Below, piece by piece: positions 2,791 to 60,061 of a DNA stretch of 64,000 bases. The notes beneath the pieces are model-generated. The model ran no database searches. It had not been told where the DNA came from and saw only the letters and a program-made list of their open reading frames with translations. A program made the translations under genes and the position numbers. This DNA is from Rugalucina vietnamica (Eukaryota > Mollusca > Bivalvia > Lucinida > Lucinidae), in NCBI GenBank assembly GCA_964017185.1, contig OZ024869.1, forward strand, positions 3,866,501 through 3,930,500. Direction: 5' to 3'. The stretch's first letter is position 1. Each line of letters opens with the position of its first letter.

Positions 2791-2801
2791 AAGCACAAAA
2801 T

Positions 2802-3035
2802 GAGCCGCATCGTGAGAAAACCGGATTTTTGGCTAGGCGAAAACAAAGGCGCAGATCAGCTTCGCGGTAACCGCGAAGCTGATCAGCGCCTTTGTTTTCG
2901 CTACTCGGATAGTACAATTCCTCTTCTACTTAAATCCGAAATTTCAAGCTTCTAGCTCTTTTCTGAGCTTGTACAGGCCGGTTTGTGTCGGACCTGTTCG
3001 GAAACCCGAAGACCGGTTTTCTCGCGTCGCGGCTC
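2802..3035 (-). mobile_element. GAGCCGC MITE, copy 1 (TSD AAAT)
   Basis: The element runs GAGCCGC...GCGGCTC and has an internal hairpin around 'gatcagcttcgcggtaaccgcgaagctgatc'-type arms. AAAT lies on both sides (2798-2801 and 3036-3039). It is in the reverse orientation relative to the copy at 3128. Confidence 0.8.
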
Positions 3036-3127
3036 AAATAATACAGCACTGTGCACCGCAGTGCAATGTAGGGGAGTGCACGACGGTTTAGAACTGTTTG
3101 GAAGTACAGTATACCACAAAATAATAA

Positions 3128-3362
3128 GAGCCGCGACGCGAGAAAACCGGTCTTCGGGGTTTCCGACAAGGTCCGACACAAACCGGGCTGTACAGTCTCA
3201 GAAGCAGGCTAGAAGCTTGAAATTTCGGATTTAAGTAGAAGAGGAATTGTACTATCCGAGTAGCGAAAACAAAGGCGCTGATCAGCTTCGCGGTTACCGC
3301 GAAGCTGATCTGCGCCTTTGTTTTCGCATAGGCAAAAATCCGGTTTTCTCACGATGCGGCTC
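3128..3362 (+). mobile_element. GAGCCGC MITE, copy 2
   Basis: Full-length copy with terminal inverted repeats and the central hairpin. It is inverted relative to copy 1, and the 92-bp spacer between them holds the short satellite, so 2802-3362 can fold back on itself. No clean target duplication is seen here. Confidence 0.75.
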
Positions 3363-3529
3363 AATTTTTTATTAATGTGTCTTTCAGCTTTGTCCTGCCT
3401 TTTCTTGGATATATAGGCATAACGAATAGCATTCGATTAACGTGATTTGAACAGTTCGACGGTATTCAAAAGAATAAATAAAGACTAGTCCCTGGCATAG
3501 TATATTAGCTAACGTTCACTAAATCTTAC

Positions 3530-3854: not shown

Positions 3855-4028
3855 AGATGATATAGCACTGAGGTCAATGGTCAAAGTCATGTCCAGTTAT
3901 GTTAAGGAATCATGAAAGTTGATAAGGTTGCACTCAGTGTCCATCAATAGGGCTGAAATATTGTACTCCATTGTAGTCCTCATTTTAATATTTCGTTCCA
4001 AAGTTGTTTGGTTCAATGTGATTTTAAT

Positions 4029-4385
4029 GTAAACCCGGTTTAAGCCCCCAGTAATTTTATATTACTGACCGTTTAAAGGCGGTACTTCGGTTGTGGTTCT
4101 AATTGTTTTATGTTTTGTTGTTGAAATTCTGTGCTGTTTGCACCTCATGTAAACCTTTATGTGCCTTATGTACGTTTTCATATACATATATATTTAGTTA
4201 AGTCCGGGTAACTGAGTGACCACCTTTTGGTAAAAAGCTGCTCACTCGACGGCTTACGATTTGTTCTCTTTGTATTAGTACGTGATTGTCAATTTTAATT
4301 CATTCCCACCCCGGTTTTTGGAATGGGACTTTCGTTATGAGTGCGCCATTTCCTGATCATTGCTTACTCTTACATTTTAAGTTAT
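4029..4385 (+). mobile_element. 3' fragment of a Naiad Penelope-like element
   Basis: Diverged copy of the sequence downstream of the RT in the element at 6390-9960. It begins 'aacccggtttaagccc' and includes 'taactgagtgaccacctttt', 'gctgctcactcg', 'cccaccccggtttttgg' and 'gcgccatttcctgatca'. It is 5' truncated and noncoding. Confidence 0.65.
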
Positions 4386-5280: not shown

Positions 5281-5605
5281 CTATTGAATTTCCGCACTAA
5301 GATTCACTGCACCGAAGTAGTGGTTGTAGATGTAAATGTTTTCTCATGCGCTTGCATGTAGATTTCATATCTTTAAGACATGATAACGAAACAAGCAAGT
5401 TTGCTGAATATTTTCTCATTCTCTTCATAACAACTTAAAAAATGCTGAAAACTTGCTTTTAGTCTGCCAACTTTCGAATTGCGTATTATTTCAGAAAAGA
5501 AAGCCCTAACAGGTGGCTATGCTGTTTTGACTATTCCGAGATCGAATAAAAAGTAAAACTCGGGGAAGGTAGACATGTATATTTGTCTTCATATAGGTTA
5601 GGATC

Positions 5606-5945
5606 CTGTAAACCCGGTTTAAGCCCGCCAGTAACTTTGTGTTACTGATCGTTCCAAGGCGATACTTCTGTGGTGGTTCTTTTTGTTTTATGTCTTGGTG
5701 TTTAAATTTTTGTTTGTGCTGTTGGCGCCTTATGTATGTTTTCATATTTTTAATTAAGTTAAGGTAACTGAGTGGCCACCTATTGGGAAAATAGCTGCTC
5801 ATTCGGCTTACGATATGTTTCATGGTATAAGTGCCTGATTGTTAGTTTGGTTTTTTCCCACCTCGGTTTTTGGAGTGGGAATCTCTTTCTGATTGCGCCT
5901 TTTCCTGATCTTTGCCTACTTGTACCTTTTCATAGTAACATCAGA
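5606..5945 (+). mobile_element. 3' fragment of a Naiad Penelope-like element
   Basis: Close match to the 3' noncoding end of the Naiad element (reverse complement of 6390-6710): 'gtaaacccggtttaagcccgcc' through 'ttgcctacttgtacctttt'. It is 5' truncated. Confidence 0.75.
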
Positions 5946-6389: not shown

Positions 6390-9300
6390 TTTGCAAGAAA
6401 AAAGGTACAAGTAGGCAAAGATCAGGAAAAGGCGCAATCAGAAAAAGATTCCCACTCCAAAAACCGAGGTGGGAAAAAAACCAAACTAACAATCAGGTAC
6501 TTATACATATCGTAAGCCGAATGAGCAGCTATTTTCCCAATAGGTGGCCACTCAGTTACCTTAACTTAACTAAAACTATGAAAACACACATAAGGCGCCA
6601 ACAGCACAAAAAATTTAAACACCAAGACATAAAACAAAAAGAACCACCACAGAAGTATCGATCAGTAACACAAAGTTACTGGCGGGCTTAAACCGGTTTT
6701 ACAGGCGCCTAACCTCACCCTCAGCTTCTGCAGTGGTTCATAACATTTAGTTAGTTCTTCGGTCCTCGTGGTGAATCTCTAACTAGTCAATGAATCATCA
6801 AGAACAAACATATAAATCAAGATAAACATCCTGATGAATCAAAAACCACGACTCACAGATTGAGTAAGCTGCCCGACGATGGAGATCCCTGGGCGCCGAA
6901 TAACCTACTAACTCCGGAGCAAAAGAAAAAACACCAGTTGGACCCCGGTGGGCCAAGCAACAGACAAGAAGCTCCGGCCCCAACCAACTAAAATGAATAG
7001 CTTTAAGTCGGGGCCATCATAGAGTCTGACGCCCGACCCACCGGCGTGCAATTAAAGAAGGCAGCATAGTTATCAACCATGATTGGGTTAAAAACTAAGC
7101 ATGCAGACTGACGCATAACATTCAAGTTATAACCTATACGTCTGTAACGTGTTATGATTTTTCTGAATTGAAAAGAAAAATCATTAATTCCTATAAGTTT
7201 CTTAAATTTGTAAACCAAGTCACCATAAAATTCAGGTTCCGAAAGGCCCTCACTTAAAAGCGTCTTTAACCCAACATTATATTTGGAAATCAATTCATAG
7301 TGTCTACGATAAAATTTAGAAAAGGTTTTTCGAAGTTTATGATACCGATAGCCCTGTTGGAGAAGTTTTGCCGATAAAAAATTTATTTCGAGCGTTGAAG
7401 TCTGTAACATGATTGCAGACTCTAGCAAACCTAATAAGTTGCGAAATGTATACACCATAAGAAGCACGACGAGGAACGTCACCATCCAAAAAAGGAAAAT
7501 TTACTATATCAAAATCAAAGTCATCGCGCTTATCATAAATTTTAGAAGAAACAAATCCATTTGCAACAGAAAGATGTAGATCTAAAAAGGGGGCTTCGGT
7601 ATCTGAGATATTGGCTTTGTTCAACTGTAGCTCAGGTGGATAAATCTGATTGACCATACCTTCAAAATAAGGGTTGTCAATGTTTAAAAGGTCATCGAGG
7701 TACCTAGATGTGGAATTGAAAGCCTCGATAACATCAGCTTGATTATCATGGTTAAGAGAATCCATGAAATCTCTTTCGTAACAGTATAAAAATAAATCAG
7801 CTACGAGAGATGCGCAATTTGTACCCATCGGAATTCCAACAATTCGTCTGTATAACTTGGTCCCAAATCTAATATAAATATTATCAAGGAGATAGGACAA
7901 GGCGTCGCACACATTCTGACATGACCAAAGTGTATACCGACTTTGGTCAGAGGAAGTGAAAAAACCTTTCTGTCATTACATGCCAAATAAAGTGAACCAT
8001 AGTTTTTAATGCCCTTTTGAACGTCCACTCTATCAAATCCAGAAGTTTTTCTTTTATTAGATTATGTGGTAATGTTGTATACAGAGTAGAAAAATCATAT
8101 GTCGACAAGCTTGTCGCACGGAACCCTCTACACTTCAATTTACTGAGCACCTCACCAGAATTTTTTATTGACCAAAACCAATTTTTATTTGAAGTTTCAC
8201 ACACTGTCTCACAGTATCTTATAACATGAGATTTGATAGCAGTAAGACTGGAAGTTAATAATTTAGAAAGTTCAGTGGTAGTACAAGAGCTAGAATTTGC
8301 AATAAATCTAGTTTTGTACGGTCTTTTGTGAAGCTTAGGTAACCAATACATCTTAGGAAGTTTGTCTTGGCCTTCATTGACACAAACAGAAAACTTAACA
8401 GGTAAATCGTTCAAGTGGTCATTAACTACAGACACTTCATCAGTATCTGTCTCCAGATAAGCCCTGGTACCATCAAGCTCCTGTTTTAAGGTGTTAATGT
8501 AGTGAAGCCTACAAACGACAACAACATTGTTTGCGGCTTTGTCTGCCGGAACCAAGACATACTTTCTATGAAATTCTTGGATACCCTGCTTCAATGCCTA
8601 AATGACGATTTGGGTTTAGGAGGTAAAAGATTAGTATTTTGTGAATAAAACTTAATAAGTTTATCCACGAAAGTGAAGATACTTCTTTTCCATTCTTTAA
8701 CAGCATTACTTTCAACACCCTCTCGTTTACACCATCGACTACTGAAATCATTTAATGCAGATGCAATCTCCTCTCTACATTTGTCGAAATTAATGTATGA
8801 TGGGAATCTATATTTCGGACCTTTAGAAACAATTTTGCGACTTCTAGAATCCGAAATTATTTTTAAATTTCCAGTAACTATATGTCCGGCTGGTTGATAA
8901 ACATATTTTGAATCTCTACAATCTCAAGACTTAGGAGTATTAGCATGGATATCAAGATCAGAAACAAGTTTATTGAAATTAAAAATAGTATTTCTGATTG
9001 GTTTGTTATATTTGTAACAAATAGTAGGAGGTTCTGAATTTTGGAAGTAGGTAGGTATAGACTGTATCACTGATTTATCCTGGAATATGCTTGGTAAATC
9101 AATAAAGTCAATTCCTTTATTAATGAAAGGAATTTTAATAAAACTTCTAATGTGATTAGATTCGGAATCGATAAATGGACGAAGAGCATGCTGAGTATAA
9201 CATCTTGTTAACAGTGCAGCCTCATACATTTGATGATTTCTATCGTAAAATCTATTAGCCTATGTGTCCAAGGAACGTAATACAGCAATAGGTAGAGAAC

Positions 9301-9960
9301 TTAGATAAGACAGCATTGGATGTCGACCGTGAATCCTCAGTTTAACAGCTAAATCATTAAGGGAAATGTTCAATTTCAATGCAGCGCACCGTTTACGTTT
9401 GTCATTACCCTTTTTCTGTATACCATGAGATCTAGATTTACGTTTACGGGACTCTGAAAGTGTAAGCACATCAAAATCGGGCATTTTGGAAATATTGCCT
9501 TCATGGTAAATGTTGTCGTTAAATCCCAGTGGAAAGGGTGTTTGCAGTAATTTTATCCATTTAAGTTCAGTTTCAAATCGTTTGATGTTTTTGAATCTAA
9601 CTGAAGAATTTTCATCATATGTGATTTTCTCCACTGGCTGAACTATAACATCATTGGGAGAATGACCAGTGCGCTTAAAATGCTGGTACAGAAAGGTATC
9701 GTTATTTTTGGGCTTTCTGATTCTACGATAGTGCTCACCAAATCGTTTTTGCAAAGTTCGACAAGTTTGTCCAACATATTGCGTCCTACAATTATTTGTA
9801 TTTCAAGTAAGAACATATACAAGATCCATTGATTTTCAGTCTAAATCAGAATCATTAACCACTGAAAATGTCCTACCATTCACAGATGAAGTGATAGTAG
9901 TAACTAATATTCTACCAGGTTTTTTTAAAGCTTGCTAGGGAGTTCCTTCATGGGGTAAAC
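6390..9960 (-). mobile_element. Near full-length Penelope-like retroelement, Naiad type (N-terminal endonuclease)
   Basis: Seen on the minus strand, 5' to 3': a GIY-YIG-like region (about 9830-9500), a basic linker, a segment with a UxC/CxC motif (8924), then a Penelope-type RT (about 8600-7003), then about 600 bp of noncoding 3' tail. The tail's last 350 bp or so is what recurs as short copies at 4029, 5606, 17791 and 19513. Known: canonical Penelope elements carry GIY-YIG after the RT. The clade with GIY-YIG before the RT, linked by a CxC segment, is called Naiad and is common in invertebrates. The 5' boundary is uncertain; similarity fades above about 9960 near A-rich sequence. Confidence 0.8.
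7003..9920 (-). pseudogene. Naiad PLE polyprotein (GIY-YIG + CxC + RT), broken, with three in-frame TGA codons
   Basis: One frame runs from about 9920 to 8590. The nuclease reads YVLT-U...QYVGQT (TGA at 9803-9805) and is preceded by another TGA at 9836-9838. RFGEHYRRI and HF-x3-GH follow. TAG stops interrupt near 9935 and at 9257-9259. At 8924-8926 a third TGA replaces the first Cys of the CxC motif (KS-U-DC). A one-base deletion near 8590 shifts into the RT (VPADKAANNVV, MYWLPKLHKRPYKTRFI, STYDFSTLYTTLP). Further shifts occur near 8020, 7960 and 7385. The catalytic motif is RYLDDLLN. Stop TAA at 7003-7005. In related clam elements TGA at these cysteines is read as selenocysteine. The TAG stops and frameshifts show that this copy itself is dead. 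Confidence 0.8.
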
Positions 9961-10440: not shown

Positions 10441-10574
10441 AAAACAATAAGCTGATCTGGGTCTGTTTGAACATTTGGTGTATTATTTGCCCCTCATTAC
10501 GAAAACTTGCCCATGCAATATACAGAGATTTTTTCAGTTGTAAAAAATTAAAATTTCATCAGAAAAAGTTTGAT

Positions 10575-10690
10575 ATTTTTCTTATTTTTGCTCAAAACAT
10601 AGATTGTGGGTACAAGTTAGAACCACCTCGCCGAGGCGGTTCTAACGAGTACAAACAATCTATGTTTTGGAGCAAAATTAAGAAAAAAAG
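10575..10690. repeat. Long hairpin repeat (aaacatagattgtgggtac arms)
   Basis: 'ttttgctcaaaacatagat' followed by 'ggttctaac' pairs with 'gttagaacc...atctatgttttggagcaaaa'. The central loop is 'cgccgaggcgg'. Single-arm or decayed relatives occur at 44205-44265 and 48780-48870, so it is a dispersed hairpin family. Confidence 0.6.
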
Positions 10691-10744
10691 ATATACCCCT
10701 GCATATCCCAGTTTTGCTGTTTAAAAGTGTGGTTCAAGGGAATA

Positions 10745-14068: not shown

Positions 14069-15312
14069 ATGAAAGATTTTTACATTACATTACTAAGTGA
14101 CAGTTCTATGAACATGTTCCCATCAAATAAACAGTCTGAATTTACTGTAAGATTGAATCATCCTATCAAAATTGACGTGGAAAGCTGGGAGGTTGCCTTG
14201 GTTGAAATTGCAACACCACCTGAAGTTCTCAACATAACAGAAGAAAACAACTATTTCTTTTTGACTTTTCTAGACCAATCCTGTTTACGCAGAGTTGGAA
14301 ATCGAAACATCACAGACATATGTAGCAGTGAAAACGGCTGCTATAACTTCAAACTAACAATTCCAACTGGAAATTATGAGTCACATGAATCACACTGGTA
14401 AACGTAAACGCACTGGCTAAGGCACGAACGTATAGGCTAAGGCTATTTCAACGCTATGGCTAAGAAAGAAAATGGCGGATAGAGAGACACATGTGCAGGT
14501 TTGTTGTTGTTTTACAGTTTCACTTTCCGGTTATCAATGATAACAGCTACTGGCTTGGCGGCGCGGGACCCACAAATGAGTCACAAACTTACGTTCGATG
14601 GTCCGATGTCGCCAGCTGCAGCCAGTAAAAGTGTAACCTCGACAAAGTGGAGACACTGAACCTCGAAAACTCATGATTTTTCATGAAACACTGTTTTTCT
14701 TTGATATCGTACGCTGTCTTGTAGTTTATACATGTGCAAATGATAAATCGGACGCCTTTGAGCACGATTTATGAAACAAATGAAATTGAAAGGCCCCCAG
14801 CGTGTGACAATACTTGAAGTTTCATTACAACGCTATTGGCTAAGGAACTGGAAACAACGTAGTGGCTAAGACCCCACAGTTTCTCGGTGGGAAAATGTTA
14901 TAATATGGTCGTAAGACACGTAAGTGTCTTTCTCAAAGTAGGTTTTGAGGTCTAAATTATTGTTCGAACATGGTTTAGAGCTTCGTTAGTTAAATTCAAA
15001 CAAATATATCGTATTTATGTACCTATCAATGTTTTCTTCGGGGGTGCTGGGGTTGCTTACAGGGGGAATTAGACAACCCAATCCCTGGGAATTAGACAGA
15101 GTACCATGACCCAGGGATGGTTAATTAGATGCTTTACTAGGAAATTGTACATAAAAATATACAGCGAAATTGATGACCCACCAGGGGATTTAGGACATCG
15201 CAATGCGATCATTGATTGGGGAATAAAACCTTTTTTTTTTTTTCAAAATTGTTTAATAATAAATTCCCAATGGAAATCCCGCCGCCCCCTCCCCTCTCCA
15301 TGAAAACATCAA

Positions 15313-18300
15313 AATGATCATGTAGATGAGCAAATTGTTGATTTTCCTAGCAAACCATCTGATCAACCTGTTATTCGGTCAGATGATTATATTCATAATG
15401 CAGAGACTATCTCTGAGATTACTGAGGGAAACGACTCCTCCACGAACAGTACTGTGCAAAACTCAGCTGATACGCTTTTGTCTAATGTATCCAATGATGG
15501 GGAGGCTACTGAATTTACTTTTATGAAAAAAGGTCTACATGTTGCAAACCTTAATGTCAGACATTTACTCTCTAAGTTAGATGACGTTAGTATGGTTTTA
15601 GCTTCTGAAAATGGTCCTGATATATTAGGACTATGTGAAACATTTTTAGATTCAACTACACCTGATAATCTGATATCTGTTTCTGATTTTGAAATTTTGC
15701 GGAAAGATAGAGGTTGCATCATTAATAAATCTGGAGGTGGGGTATTATTGTATTTCAGAAATACGATTAACTGTAGGCGCAAAACAGAACTGGAGATTTC
15801 TAACATTGAAACTCTTTGGTCCGAGGTAGCATTTCCAAATTCAAAGCCATTTCTGTTGTGCACAGTATACCGCCCACCTGATGCAAAATGTGACTGGATA
15901 GAGCTTTTTGAAGCAGAACTATCCATTGCGCAAACTACAGGGTATGAAATAATTCTCATGGGAGATTTTAACATAAATTATTTAAATTGTTCAAATAAAA
16001 AATGGCTTCACTTGGTAGAACTGTTTGACCTGAAACAAATGATTACAACCCCCACGAGAATTACACAAACTACCAGTTCTATAATTGATCACCTCTACAC
16101 TTCAACTTCTGAACATATATCAGAATGTTTCGTACCCCACTACTCAATCAGCGATCATTTCCCTATATGCTTTACGAGGAAAATCAACTACAAAATAAAA
16201 AGGTCTGCCCATATAAATACAAACTATAGATGTTTTAAGGATTTAAATGAAGAATTATTTTTGGCCGATTTGTCCGAAGATTTAAGTCTGTTTTCTGTCA
16301 GTGAATCGGATATTGAAACGGACCTTACCACATGGTATGATATTTTATTAAGACGGCTCGACCAACATGCACCGTTTAAAAGTAAGAGGGTTAAAACAAA
16401 ACGAATGCCCCCGTGGTACAATCCTGATATTGCACAAGCCCGTAAAAATCGAGATAAGAACAAAAAATTGCGAAACTGGGTCCAGTATAGAAAATACAGG
16501 AATTTAACTAAATCACTTATCAGGAAAGCCAAAAGAAATCATTTTACTTCCGCTGTTACAAATAATAAAGACACAAAAATTTTATGGCAGCAAATAAAGT
16601 CATTTCAAAATGGTGATAACAAAACTGCAAAATTATTACCTGATCAATTGAACATTGATGGTGCATTAGTAACAAATCCAAACGAAATCGCATGTAAGCT
16701 TAATAAATTTTTTACTAACATTTCTATACGACTTAATTCTTTCAACACGACAGCAAAAGCGGATGACCAAACCAAGCTCATTAACCATGTCAGCAACAAA
16801 GTGCCTTCAGAAACTTTTTTCCATATCCCACTCATCACACCATCACAGGTTGCGACTCTCATCCGTAAACTAGATCCCGGAAAATCAACTGGCCTGGACG
16901 GCATCGGCCCCAGGATTATTAAACTATCATGTGATGTTATAGCACCCAGCATCGCAGATTTGATAAATAAAAGCATCACTAGTGGGCGTTTTCCAAATCA
17001 GCTTAAACAAGCAAAGGTGTATCCAATTTTTAAAAATGGTGCAAAAGATGACCCATCAAACTACCGCCCAATTTCTATTTTGCCCACCATCTCAAAATTT
17101 TTTGAAAAACATGTCAATATCCACCTTATGCGATTTCTAAATAAACACAAATTGATACATGAATGCCAATCTGGTTTCAGACAAAAACACAGCTGTAATA
17201 CTGCACTTATTAAACTGATAGATCAGTGGATGGAAAGTATCGATAAGGGAGACATAATTGGTTCTTTGTTTATTGATTTCAGAAAGGCCTTTGACATGGT
17301 CGACCATCCGCTTCTTCTTAAAAAGCTGACACACTATAAGCTGAGCAATGCATCCTTAAACTGGTTCCAGTCTTACCTAAGTAATCGCGTTCAATGCATA
17401 AAGAGCGACGACGGTATGTCTGAATTCTCTGAGATGTTATCGGGTGTGCCCCAGGGCTCTATTCTGGGGCCCACATTATTTTTATTATTTATCAATGACC
17501 TGCCTCTCTATCTGAAACATTGTCTCGCTGATCTATATGCAGACGATAGTACTGTTCACGTATCGGGGAAAAACAAGCCCGAAATTGAACATAAATTGCA
17601 AACGGATGCAAATGAAACAGATGACTGGAGTATAAGAAATAAACTGCCAATTCATTATGGTAAATCAACTACTATGACCCTTGGTACTATATATAAACTT
17701 CAACAGGCAGGTCAATTGAATATAACTATCGGTAATACTCCTCTAAACTCAGTCAGTTCTCAAAAATTATTAGGCTTACATATTGATGAAACCGAGGACC
17801 GAAGAACTAACTAAATGTTGTGAACCACTGCAGAAGCTGAGGGTGAGGTTAGGTACCTGTAAAACCGGTTTAAGCCCGCCAGTAACTTTGTGTTACTGAT
17901 CGTTCCAAGTCGATACTTCTGTAGTGGTTCTTTTTGTTTTATGTCTTGGTGTTTAGGATTTTTTGTGCTGTTGGCGCCTTATGTGTGTTTTCGTATTTTT
18001 AGTTGAGTTAAGGTAACTGGGTGGCCACCTATTGGGAAAATAGCTGCTCATTCGGCTTACGATATGTTTCATGGTATAAGTACCTGATTGTTAGTTTGTT
18101 TTTTTCCCACCTCGGTTTTTGGAGTTGGAATCTTTTTCTGATTGCGCCTTTTCCTGATCTTTGCCTACTTGTACCTTCTTACTTGGAACAAACATATTGA
18201 TTACTTATGTTCCGTCATTTCCTCTAGGATATCACTTCTAAAACATCTTTCTTATTATGTTCCACAAAATGTCCAAAAAATGTATTATCAAAGTTACATT

Positions 18301-18750
18301 CTCCCTATGATTGATTACGGTTCGATTTCTTGGGGATCCACATCAAAACAGAACATTGAACGTATAAATAAGATGCAAAAACGAGCGGCACGTATCATTT
18401 TAAACGCAGACTATATTACTCCATCAGAGGAAATGTTTCAACGATTAGATTGGATGCCAGTATCAAATCGAATTAAATATAATAAAGCCATTCTGACATA
18501 CAAGGCCTTGAACAATCTTACGCCGTCATACATATCCGATTTGCTGACACCAACAGCTTTAGTATATAACAGAACTTTGAGATCAACTGAAAATGGCGCA
18601 CTAGTAATACCAAAGACCAATACATCTTTTTACACAGGCTCATTTACATGCTCAGCCCCCAAACTATGGAATACGTTCCCGACATCAATCAGACAAGCAC
18701 CGTCCTTGAACACATTCAAAAGAACTTTGAAAGAGCATATAGCATCTTAA
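15313..18750 (+). pseudogene. LINE ORF2: endonuclease-reverse transcriptase, split by an insertion
   Basis: The frame is open to 17814. The endonuclease comes first (LHVANLNVRHL; ILGLCETFLD; CTVYRPP; ILMGDFNINY; SDHFPICF). The RT follows (DPGKSTGLDGI; NYRPISILPTISK; FIDFRKAFDMVDH; GVPQGSILGP; DLYADDSTV with the catalytic YADD). The frame then runs into inserted Naiad 3' sequence and stops at 17814. The C-terminal part resumes at about 18178 (LTWNKHIDYLC ... APKLWNTFP ... stop at 18750). Catalytic residues look intact on either side, so the insertion is the main lesion. First-ATG choice is uncertain because the 5' end may be truncated. Confidence 0.85.
17791..18177 (+). mobile_element. Naiad 3' fragment inserted in the LINE ORF
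   Basis: It begins 'accgaggaccgaagaactaa' and continues through 'gtaaaaccggtttaagcccg' to 'cttgtacctt'. It matches the reverse complement of 6390-6770, including the bases just below the RT stop region. The LINE reading is continuous across the site if this piece is left out. Confidence 0.8.
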
Positions 18751-19512: not shown

Positions 19513-19864
19513 GGAAACGAACTTGTTTTGTGTTTTGGAGTTGAAATTTTGTACTGTTTTGTCGTTTGAGCCTTATGTACGTTTTCACATTTTTAAGTCA
19601 AATCAAATCAAATAATTTATTGGCATAGAATTCAAGGACAGGATTGTAACCATACATACAAATACAAATACATTTTTAGTTAAGTTCGGTAACTGAGTAG
19701 TCGCCTATTGGGGAATAGCTGCTCACTCGGCTTACGGTATGTTTTCTTGGCATAAGTACCTAAATGTCATTTTGGCTTTTTCCCACCCCTCGGTTTGTGG
19801 AGTGGGACTTTCTCTCTGATTGCGCCATTTCCTGATCATTGCCTACTTTTTACCTTTTCAAATT
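19513..19864 (+). mobile_element. Naiad 3' fragment, itself interrupted by a LINE tail
   Basis: A diverged copy of the Naiad 3' end. At about 19596-19672 it carries an insert which, read on the minus strand, ends 'ccaataaattatttgatttg...', a typical short LINE 3' end. After it the Naiad sequence resumes ('agttaagttcggtaactgag'). Confidence 0.6.
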
Positions 19865-23163: not shown

Positions 23164-23948
23164 TCCAAGTCCTTTGAGAGCATAAAATGACAGTATGCGG
23201 TTAAACGTGATCCGGAGTAACTACAATGCCACCGTTTCAAAGTTTCTAATTAAATATGTCGCAATATTCGATTTAAGGACGGAAACTTCGTCAAAATGAC
23301 AGAAAATAATTGGAAAACATATTAGCAACAAAAATCGAAAGATAACTGGTACCTTTCATTTTCGGGAAATTCGGCGAACCGCCGTGTGTAAAAGTACGTT
23401 TTTTCCATCGTGTTTCTGTTTCTGTATATGAGCCGGGAACCATTGACGTGAACAAGATGTTGACGTCATTATCCACGATCATTGACCATGGAATGAAACA
23501 TGTTTGAATCAAGAGTCAAGTGGCCAAGTCCGTTTAAAAAAATCTTGTTTCATATTGATCCGGATCATCTACAGATCCGCTATGGCTACAACGAGTGTAT
23601 ACGCAATATTAAATTGAACAATGTCCCATAAAACGCCAGTTGGATACAAAAGCTGTTATTGTGTCTGATTTATGTAACGTTACATAAATCTATACTCATA
23701 ATAACAGATCCCTTTATCTGTATCTATATAACTTTCATTTTATATCAATTATGATTTCATATTTGAATTAGAATACACTGACAACATTAATATAACATCT
23801 ACAATCTGACATAATATCTAATGTCTCGTACCAACGAAGTGTCCATTGGTCCATAGAAAGACTGGGCCATAGGATACCTAACATTCTTTGAGATGCCCGG
23901 GCATGCTATCTCGGGGGGAGGGGGGGGGATGAGAAAACACAGAAAAAT

Positions 23949-24182
23949 GAGCCGCCTCATGAGAAAACCAACAATGTGGTTTTTAAACAGGTCCGACACA
24001 AACCGGCCTGTACAAGCACAGAAAAGATCTAGAAGCTTGAAATTTCTGATTTAAGTAGAATAGTAATTGTACTTTCCGAGTAGCGAAAATAAAGGCGCTG
24101 ATCAGCTTCGCGGTTACCGCGAAGCTGATCTGCGTCTTTGTTTTCGCCTATGCAAATTGTTGGTTTTCTCATGAGGCGGCTC
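23949..24182 (+). mobile_element. GAGCCGC MITE
   Basis: Full-length copy with both termini and the central hairpin; flanks are AT-rich with no perfect 4-bp duplication. It is preceded by a G tract (23914-23928). Confidence 0.8.
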
Positions 24183-25085
24183 ATTTATAGAAAACACCAT
24201 CTGTTTACTAGGGATCAGCATTTTAAAGAAAACAATTTCTAAACGTTTAAATGCTTCAATTAACGCCCAGAAAAGATGTTACTTTCTTTTCTAGAGCCAG
24301 CTCTCGAGAAAATGGATAACATTAGGCAGAATCACGAGTAACACGTGTTTAAGTAGCGTTCCAGAGCACAGTAAGTCTATTAGTACTTACAGAATGATCA
24401 GATCCAATCAAAGACAAATCACGGTACTTGTACATTTGCCGAAAAGTCTATTTTGCGGTACCAATACTCGAACATACTTGTTTGATTCTCGTGTTACAGC
24501 ATGCAATTAAAATCACACCGGTTTCAGCCGGTAAGTTCAATATTTTCAAACTTGTGTTCCATACAACTTATTCTGTGGGAAAATGAAACATGTGTTGGTT
24601 TGACGTAAACACCTACGCATGTATGGAGTAAACACAGGTACATGTGTACACGTATGACAGGTTATGACGCCCAAATTAACTTACCTAGATGAGATGTCAG
24701 TTACTTTCACGATCAACAGCACGTGTAGTACAAAGTGCAACTGAACCAATGGGACCCTGTGAACAGAAGGCTGAAATTTCTAAAATTAATGCCCAAAACA
24801 TTGAAGACAGTAGTTTATAATGACAATGGATGTTCCTCGCAACTTGTCAACTTTCTCCACCTTTTTGCCAGATTTATAGGGTCACCGATGAGGCTTGTGT
24901 AGCCGAAACCGGTGCGGATCAAGCTCGTCCCCTTTTTCCTTAGATGAGTGGTAGACTTGTCAGTATATACTAAGTAAACTAAACTTTCACGAAAGTTTTC
25001 GTGGTATATTAAGTTAGAAGACAACAGATAGTAATTAAAGAAAGTTTGTTCGCTGCTATCATTTGTTCTTGCATTAAACGTAATA
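24183..25085. other. Intergenic stretch, no gene called
   Basis: A strong donor-like TCTAG|GTAAGT on the minus strand at about 24683 stands alone without coding support. A LINE-like 'ccggtttcggctacacaagc' (minus) lies near 24895. Confidence 0.3.
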
Positions 25086-40900: not shown

Positions 40901-43900
40901 TGTCAAGGCAGCAATGGGTAACGTACAGTTGCTCAATACTAGTTTTCTGATGCCACAATTTCAAAAGAACATCTTTTAAAACTGTGAATTTCAATGCATT
41001 TGTCATATGGCTCTGTTATGTGCTTTCCATTTATTCATTCCAAATAAATTATTATATGCTGTGTGTTTTTTTATGCACATTGAAAGTGAGCAGCTGCATA
41101 AGAAACCATCAACATGCATGGAAAGTCCTTGAAAAGTCCTTGAAAACAAAATTTGCCTTGAAAAGTGCTTGGAAACTGAGCATAGACCTTGAAAAGTACA
41201 TGTACTTGATTTTACTTTTTTTTGTGTTCCAGACAGCTGCCAGATCGATTACAAAGGTGCAGGTCAGCTCTGCAGTAACTTCACGGTTGATCCGTACCTT
41301 TGTTTTCCCTCCATAGATACATGTAGTTTGATGCCTCTTCCTTCTAAATCTGAAATTTCCAGCTTCTATCTATTTTCGGGCTTCAGCCTGGTTTGCGTGG
41401 AACCTGGTCGTAAACCCAGATTTTGATGGTTCCATTTTGAAATAAAATGTTTGATTTCCTTACAGGTTTTCTGAAGCAGAGGTGATACTGGCCGGTAACA
41501 TCCTCAGTAAAGTGAAAAGTCACGAGGAAATAGAGATGGAATTTGGAAATCTTTCTAGTCATGTGTTTTCATTGCTCGGTGCTATATATAGTCGGACAGA
41601 ACGGCCACAAAAAGCCATTGACTGTTATAAGAAGAGTTTAAAATTAAATCCTTTATTGTGGACTGCATATGAAAGATTATGTCAGTTAGGTAAGATGGCA
41701 AAAATACTACTGTAAATTCGGAAATTTTCGTGTGACTTTTATTTTGCAAATTTTCTATTTCCGAATTATTAGCGAGTTCTTGAATTCACAAGTGAATGTA
41801 CATATATTCTAAAATGTTTAAAGTGACTATTTATTAGCGAGAACTTTGGATTCGCGAGGCAACCAATTTGCGAATAGTAGCGAAAATTAAGTTCTCGCGA
41901 AGATTTTCGGATTTACAGTATTTGCATGCAATTCCAGACTTGTCATTCAAATACCCTATTTGTTATATTTAGCGCTAAGTTTTCAAAGTTGCCTCAGAAA
42001 TGCTCAATAAAGTCACATTCTAATAAGCGCACACAAAATCTGAAGAGAACATGGGAATCACTGAAGTAAGCTAGTCTAAAACGTTGATGTTGATGCATTC
42101 TACGTATTAAAACCGTTGCAAAATGTTTTGGATTATATCTTAGTACACCTACTAGAATATGAGAAAACCAACAATCTGCATATGCGAAAACAAAGACGCA
42201 GATCAGCTTCGCGGTAACCGCGAAGCTGATCAGCGCCTTTGTTTTCGCTACACGGATAGTACACTTCCTCTTCTTCCTAGTCTAAAATGTTGATGTTGAT
42301 GCATTCTACGTATTAAAATTTAAAACCGTTGCAAAATGTTTTGGATTAAATCTTAGTACACCTACTAGACTATTCTAGTGGCAAAACTGGTGTACAGGAT
42401 ACTCACTGTTGGTTCATGCATTTCATTGCTTTACTCTGCAGTTAAACCTTTTCGTTCAAATTATGGACTACCTGCATCAAATATTTGAGCTGTGCCATGA
42501 GAAAACCAGCAATTTGCATATGCAAAAACAAAGATACAGATTAGTTTCGCAGTAGCCGCGAAGCTGATCAGCACCATTGTTTTTGCTACAGGGATAGTGC
42601 AGTCTTCTGTTTTCGTTATCCAAAATTTCCAGCCTCTAGCCATCCTCGGTGCTTGTACAGCTTGGTTTGTGTCAGACCTGTTCGGAAACCATATTGTTGG
42701 TTTGCTCATGGTTTGCTCAAATATTTAGGAGAAAACTATTGTGATATGTATGCAAAATTGAGAAATTAAAACAAATTATTTGCAGGTGAAAAAATAGACC
42801 CAGCGACAGTTTTTAATGTTCCCAATGCCAACCAAGTGAACCTACTCCTACAGAACACAAGACAGCCCACCGTTGTGATACAACAACCTCAAGCCCCTCC
42901 CCCTCAAGTCCAGGCCCCTCCCACTGTCACAGTGTCCGAGACCCATGTGACTGAAGCTCCTTCTCCACAACCACCACGGACTGAAGAACAGTCAACTCAG
43001 GTAACTAGATATACAAGAATGACAAGGGCCTCGGGCGCACACCCACATCCAAACACACAAAAATATATGGCTCGATTTGTTTGTTTGTTTTGGTGCTTCA
43101 CATCTATGGTGAACAGCTAGGGTTATGTCAGGATGGTCAGTTATTCCTCGGCTAGCCTTCCAGAGGCAGAGTTCCATTACTTAGGAAAAAAGAAAAATGA
43201 CTGTTGATATATTTTTGTGACAAAAAGATGACTGAATGCTTGAATGTTTGGTTAAAATGCAGTAAAATATGAGCCGCCTCGTGGAAAAACCAACAATGTG
43301 GTTTCAGAACAGGTCCGACACAAACCGAGCTTTACACGCACAGAAGCATGCTAGAAGCTTGAAATTTTGGATTTATTAAGTAGAGGAATTGTACTATCCA
43401 TGTAGCGAAAACAAAGGCGCTGATCAGCTTCGCGGTTACCGCGAAGCTGATCTGCGTCTTTGTTTTCGCCTATGCAGATTGTTGGTTTTCCCATGAGGCG
43501 GTTCATATGTTTATGTGAGTTATATCTGGGAGCTTATTGCTTTGATATGCAAAACTCAAATTCAATTAGAGCAGCTGATACCAAGGTTTGAAATTTCTAT
43601 CGAAAACAAAGTAGAAAACATGACATTGAACAGTCATGGTAAATTATGAGGAAAATATTCTTAGCGGGATATTAATTGAGCCGTGTCATGAGAAAACCAA
43701 CAATGAAGTTTTTAACAGGTCCCACACAAACTGAGCTGTACAAGCACAGAAGAAGGCTAGAAGCTTGAAATTTATAGATTTAGAAAGTAGAGGAATTGTT
43801 TATTGAAAACATTTCGCTGATCAGCTTCGCGGTTTTCGCATATGCAGATTATTTGTTTTCTCATGATGCGGTTGATATCCTTAGTGGGATGTTAATTAAC

Positions 43901-59766: not shown

Positions 59767-59821
59767 GTGAGTATAAGTGAAACTGTTCATTCTGGAGTCT
59801 GATTTCAGTATTCAGACAAAT

Positions 59822-60055
59822 GAGCCGCCTTGTGGGAAAACCAACAATGTGGTTTCCGAACAGGTCCGACAAAAACCGGCCTGTACAAGCACAGAAAAGA
59901 GCTAGAAGCTTGAAATTTCGGATGTAAGTAGAAGAGGAATTGTACTTTCCGAGTAGCGAAAACAAAGGCGCTGATCAGCTTCGCAGTTACTGCGAAGCTG
60001 ATCTGCGCCTTTGTTTTCGCATATGCAGATTGTTGGTTTTCCCATGTGGTGGCTC
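59822..60055 (+). mobile_element. GAGCCGC MITE (TSD AAAT)
   Basis: Full length; AAAT at 59818-59821 and 60056-60059. It lies 55 bp after CDC27 exon 16, in the opposite orientation to the remnant upstream of the exon. Confidence 0.85.
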
Positions 60056-60061
60056 AAATTG

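Follow-up and report, generated by a model that had tools for sequence, protein, structure and literature searches.

Predicted selenoproteins of a Naiad-type Penelope-like element in Rugalucina vietnamica, with a stop codon inside the SECIS element

The question raised by this locus is whether three in-frame TGA codons in a broken transposon copy descend from selenocysteine (Sec) codons or arose by decay. The window (i.e., the whole 64,000-nucleotide stretch of the Rugalucina vietnamica genome analysed here) contains a Naiad-type Penelope-like element (PLE) on its minus strand (Table 1). An earlier note on this DNA had placed TGA codons at 9836-9838, 9803-9805, and 8924-8926 in one reading frame, at positions where Cys would be expected (two in the Cys cluster of the nuclease and one as the first Cys of the CxC motif), and had taken the copy to descend from a selenoprotein-coding Naiad. 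The three codons lie exactly where claimed, at residues 33, 44, and 337 of the minus-strand frame that starts at 9934, and the proposed descent is borne out by the TGA codons of other genomic copies and by the presence of a SECIS element. We consider it very likely that the locus is a dead, 5'-truncated Naiad-type copy whose unbroken family members are predicted selenoproteins. Sec-encoding Naiads of clams and spiders have reportedly been described already, by Craig and colleagues in 2021; they reportedly resemble the present family in the permuted nuclease-CxC-reverse transcriptase (RT) order and in carrying several Sec codons at conserved Cys positions. The limited literature collection that we searched contained no paper pairing Naiads or PLEs with Sec and no listed title naming a Sec-encoding transposon.

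Homology to full-length copies sets the 5' limit of the window copy at 9901 and its 3' end at approximately 6391 to 6399, and the absent 5' part includes the start codon. Besides the three TGAs, the sole stop upstream of the frame break near 8597 is a TAG (9262-9260), in agreement with the earlier statement that the other stops of the 5' frame are TAG only. A fourth in-frame TGA (8593-8591) lies just beyond this break and aligns with Leu in relatives. Because it is 5' truncated and carries a TAG and frame breaks, the window copy is dead and cannot be active. The RT half had no Pfam match in the window pieces; its main pieces show 92 to 98% identity to the relative P0066.

Several features mark the element as Naiad-type. 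A GIY-YIG endonuclease lies N-terminal to the RT in one open reading frame (ORF), a CxC motif (UxC in the window) is located between the two, and the window frame aligns to the relative P0009 in nuclease-then-RT order. Pfam recovered the order GIY-YIG then RVT_1 in three of the eight proteins given (L001, P0009, and P0024), with RVT_1 in L001 and P0024 and GIY-YIG in P0009 falling below the cut-off; P0010 had GIY-YIG only, and the other four had no Pfam match. For a structural model of P0009, a Cys-type Naiad (pLDDT 82.4, pTM 0.67), the top 16 PDB matches in Foldseek were all telomerase structures (E values from 1e-10 to 7e-06); the telomerase-like RT is thus seen in the model of a relative. 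The similarity to telomerase RT is partial (TM-score on the query, 0.25 to 0.35), and telomerase differs from the Naiads, which carry a GIY-YIG nuclease. The family unit measures 4226 nt with a 1077-amino-acid (aa) ORF. Head-to-tail Naiad arrays with a spacing of 4223 to 4227 nt occur at G000:C11:53185202, C15:40645545, C1:83952368, and C3:25764843, and a direct copy of the 3' tail precedes the 5' end in four of the five copies examined (L016, L020, L026, and L038); this pseudo-LTR and tandem arrangement is a Naiad feature. No hammerhead family was found among the Rfam matches of the window and the copies given. Naiads are not known to carry a hammerhead ribozyme.

Table 1. Features of the Naiad copy in the window (positions refer to the whole stretch)
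Feature	Positions	Strand	Evidence
5'-truncated Naiad copy	6399..9901	minus	96.6-96.7% nt identity over 3.5 kb to L016, L020, L026, L038
Predicted Sec site 1, TGA; first Cys of cluster before nuclease	9836..9838	minus	Cys in 10/10 Cys-type Naiads
Predicted Sec site 2, TGA; Cys of YLITC motif	9803..9805	minus	Cys in 10/10 Cys-type Naiads
GIY-YIG endonuclease	9656..9823	minus	Pfam PF01541, 26.5 bits (cut-off 22.6), 8.3e-06
TAG nonsense codon of the window copy	9260..9262	minus	frame reading
CxC motif with predicted Sec site 3, TGA at 8926-8924	8918..8926	minus	Cys in 10/10 Cys-type Naiads
RT region, frame breaks near 8597-8594, 8019-7960, 7377-7352	7352..8597	minus	tblastn pieces of P0066/P0023
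Site 4, TGT in the window copy	8511..8513	minus	TGT in 37/37 readable of 40 genomic copies
SECIS element; AUGA 7020-7017, AAR 7004-7002	6961..7028	minus	Rfam RF00031 (SECIS_1)
TAA stop in SECIS bulge, AA shared with AAR motif	7003..7005	minus	sequence and predicted fold
3'UTR tail	6391..6768	minus	repeated elsewhere in the window

The expectation of Cys at the three sites held in an alignment of ten Cys-type Naiads (P0009 to P0013, P0022, P0024, P0060, P0063, and L001), all of which have Cys at each of them; within the UxC (8926-8918), both Cys columns are Cys in all ten. In the first alignment, Cys stood in for the TGA codons, which could draw them onto Cys columns. After realignment with TGA as X, and with the Trp-bearing relatives left out, Cys was again found in 10/10 at each site. 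Mostly-Cys columns number 8 of 431 in the realignment and 6 of 433 in the first alignment, giving chances of approximately 4e-6 and 1.5e-6, respectively, that all three TGAs fall on them, as simple hypergeometric figures for a finding picked for its striking look. The window frame now holds 59 sense codons one step from TGA, of which 8 are Cys codons. Site 2 and the next Cys presumably represent the two Cys of the CCHH motif found in PLE nucleases. Judged from the sequence, Sec probably replaces a metal- or thiol-binding Cys at sites 2 and 3, since site 2 would be the first Cys of CCHH and site 3 starts the CxC.

The same codons were read in other copies of the host genome (1.09 Gb in 47 contigs). 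A search with the relative P0023 gave 34,212 first-look candidates, not all of them verified; none of the 72 copies that were scored has a stop inside the match. Forty of these, i.e., best matches of the search, were analysed codon by codon, as the earlier note had proposed in asking for TGA to be compared with TGT/TGC. TGA was found in every readable case (15/15 at site 1, 14/14 at site 2, and 36/36 at site 3), so that the TGT/TGC which the note had named as refuting its reading did not appear, and all 40 copies terminate with TAA. Truncation is common, and the frame does not include site 1 in 25 of the 40. A single open frame spans sites 1 and 2 in 14 copies (10 distinct ORF sequences), each with exactly three TGAs, no other stop after the chosen Met, and then TAA; 12 of them encode 1077 aa with TGA at 133, 144, and 437, and the remaining 2 are without the chosen Met and were read from another. 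No TGA occurs in the last 640 codons of the copies read. These 14 copies differ by only 0.53% on average, and the family is therefore young and its copies represent few independent events. A second sample came from a search with P0002, in which 58 copies were scored. Within the match, 55 have exactly one TGA, 2 have two, and 1 has a TAA; this count (at least one TGA in 57/58) covers any TGA within the match. At site 3, the copy with the TAA carries TGG. For sites 1 and 2, short pieces taken from all 58 have TGA at both in 37/37 readable cases; in the other 21, the element is not in the expected place, and 3 of these keep the site 2 context, each with TGA. Since TGA occupies all readable sites in unbroken genomic copies, the TGAs are inherited and not a product of decay.

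The earlier note had also expected a SECIS element in the 3' region, and one is present, scoring 39 bits in Rfam (cut-off 35; E value of 2.5e-4 over 64 kb), but at 7028-6961 it extends 26 bases outside the interval proposed for it (6390-7002). It is the sole Rfam match above its cut-off in the 64-kb window; the remaining matches, each under its own cut-off, were set aside as chance. The segment 7060-6930 folds at -65.5 kcal/mol, compared with a mean of -41.6 for shuffled sequences (z of -6.4), and none of 200 shuffles was as good. Among 12 of the 40 genomic copies that were given to Rfam, 11 reach the SECIS cut-off; the exception (L047) has a changed base in its SECIS arm. Absence of the structure from the copies, the outcome that the note had named as counting against Sec, was thus not what we found. 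The unbroken genes combine the features of a eukaryotic selenoprotein gene, namely, an in-frame TGA at a Cys column, a downstream SECIS, and a non-TGA terminator. Running the SECIS model over the whole genome yielded 42,234 candidates, of which 150 were scored. Sixteen reached the cut-off, and all 16 share the SECIS core of this Naiad, as judged by eye. Naiad coding sequence is present in the 0.6 to 0.9 kb fetched around 15 of them, in the opposite orientation to the SECIS match in two (L052 and L066), and none is present around L053. Host selenoprotein SECIS elements presumably exist, and none was among the scored candidates above the cut-off.

The SECIS straddles the end of the ORF: its 5' arm is coding sequence for the tail of the protein, and its 3' arm is 3'UTR. 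In the window copy, the predicted fold makes the TAA (7005-7003) exactly the three-base bulge; in L016, which has an A for T directly before the stop, the unpaired part is longer. The TAA stop and AAR motif are the same in all 40 genomic copies, each of which reads ATG ATG GCC C(C/T)G ACA TAA A. A TAA inside a SECIS that shares the AAR adenines is new to us, and the limited literature collection searched yielded no description of a stop codon within a SECIS. The GPX4 gene of fowlpox virus has its SECIS within the ORF, and this SECIS is reported to be functional in mammalian cell lines (PMC6769590). The SECIS thus overlaps coding sequence in both cases; in fowlpox GPX4, the element lies inside the ORF, whereas the Naiad SECIS straddles the ORF end with the stop in the AAR bulge. 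Among 170 relative proteins, 80 have the tail, which is immediately followed by the protein end in 73. A Met stands at the first position of the MM pair, the one spelling AUGA, in 75 of the 80. The tail, which encodes the SECIS arm, occurs in 0 of 11 Cys-type proteins checked. Its conservation may also be due to a role in the protein, and a few subfamilies contribute most of the clusters. In P0028 and P0049, the reading of a tail Trp as a UGA stop that forms the SECIS AUGA is compatible with the sequences, but 38 of 1284 control segments also pass, and it was discarded.

How else might the TGAs be explained? Random mutation of Cys codons after the copy had died is suggested by the state of the window copy, which is truncated and broken, and by TGT and TGC being a single step from TGA. 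However, the three codons are TGA in unbroken copies wherever they can be read, a SECIS is present, and a fall of all three TGAs on Cys columns is hardly expected by chance; we regard this explanation as already refuted and leave it next to no probability. Selenium-independent readthrough of the UGAs, with Trp or Cys inserted, is also very improbable. Predicted relatives do show Trp at the sites, and a gene caller treating TGA as Trp would write the same, but such readthrough would not call for a SECIS that passes Rfam and folds far better than shuffled sequences, and the residue aligned with the TGAs in Cys-type relatives is Cys.

A small probability goes to fossil recoding, by which Sec was used formerly and the UGAs now end translation, leaving the RT past site 3 as the sole product, or with the nuclease provided in trans. 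The lack of TGA from the last 640 codons would fit this, and copies only 0.53% apart are so young that relaxed selection would not show. Against it stand the nuclease half, which is open in 14 of the 40 copies, the SECIS kept in nearly all copies given to Rfam, and the like arrangement seen in the proteins of relatives. The reading of the family as selenoprotein coding is preferred over all of these.

If the family does encode selenoproteins, the SECIS-binding protein and Sec elongation factor of the host would decode the three UGAs as Sec, yielding the full-length nuclease-CxC-RT enzyme, which would nick DNA and reverse transcribe its own RNA. Production of the full-length enzyme would then be expected to require a supply of selenium. 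The role of Sec may be to adjust metal binding or redox sensing, or simply to tie output to selenium. A ribosome terminating at the TAA would have to melt the SECIS, and, because of this, termination would be coupled to Sec decoding by the ribosomes that follow. We propose tentatively, at less than even confidence, that the stop is built into the SECIS and that the tail CTPVGRASDSMMAPT is kept largely as its codons form the 5' arm; with every terminating ribosome the SECIS would come unfolded, and the Naiad would thereby meter Sec decoding, and hence the full-length nuclease-RT, by ribosome traffic and selenium supply. The unbroken genomic copies show that the predicted product of a many-copied element is a multi-Sec protein, and all SECIS matches detected in the genome (16 among the 150 scored candidates) come from a transposon. 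Sec would here sit at a likely metal-binding Cys of a nuclease and not at a redox active site, which is open to direct test; a SECIS containing the stop codon is likewise directly testable.

Cys-type Naiads have the same conserved positions and, where Pfam sees both domains, the same domain order; they differ in having Cys for Sec, in the lack of a SECIS match in L001, and in the lack of the tail. L001 is an unbroken Cys-type Naiad of 1013 aa with Cys at the three sites and no TGA in frame, and Rfam gave no SECIS match to it at an E value of ≤1. Its contig is filed as a Flavobacteriales metagenome-assembled genome (MAG), a public bacterial genome that is probably contaminated with eukaryotic DNA. 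At site 4, Cys is found in a fragment in L002. Eighty-five of the 170 relatives, P0003 included, were aligned to P0003. At site 4, 42 have Cys and 12 an apparent Trp; 22 proteins stop immediately ahead of this site, and it is not covered in 9. Among those covering the other sites, Cys, Trp, and another residue are found at site 3 in 29, 9, and 5, respectively (at least one of the last five, P0024, being an alignment slip, with Cys in the ten-Naiad alignment); site 1 is Cys in 10 and Trp in 3; and site 2 is Cys in 6 and Trp in 3. A gene caller reading TGA as Trp could explain the Trp residues, and TGG is also possible; the other subfamilies were examined as proteins, and one genomic copy does carry TGG at site 3. 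On these alignments, other subfamilies probably use site 4 as a fourth Sec position, whereas the present one has Cys there.

No related DNA was found in viral contigs, phages, or plasmids. The genome-contig collection returned nothing for P0002 and two loci for query A2, both with Cys where readable. The named matches to relatives are six Pinctada imbricata gene models and, among 120 listed of 1671, two Thiodiazotropha MAG proteins; we take the latter as presumable contamination from lucinid clams.

The window also contains other repeats. The Naiad 3' tail recurs at 17793-18188, 5595-5930, 4028-4378, and 19674-19858 (70 to 92% identity). The tail at 17793-18188, 92% identical to 6391-6768, splits an apparently single CR1-like LINE frame (15304-17814 plus 18142-18750; family name by eye) and looks like a nested insertion. 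Long inverted repeats with a common centre at approximately 17.3 kb (14389-15000/19856-20464 and 12187-12554/21959-22422; 87 to 96% identity) perhaps represent a 10-kb element (12187-15000/19856-22422) that contains the LINE between long terminal inverted repeats. A palindromic MITE-like family has approximately 10 copies (2797-3367, 23940-24183, 43262-43505, 59813-60056, and others). Finally, a long hairpin at 10569-10693 resembles the microRNA precursor family MIR841, far below the cut-off, and is probably a short inverted-repeat element.
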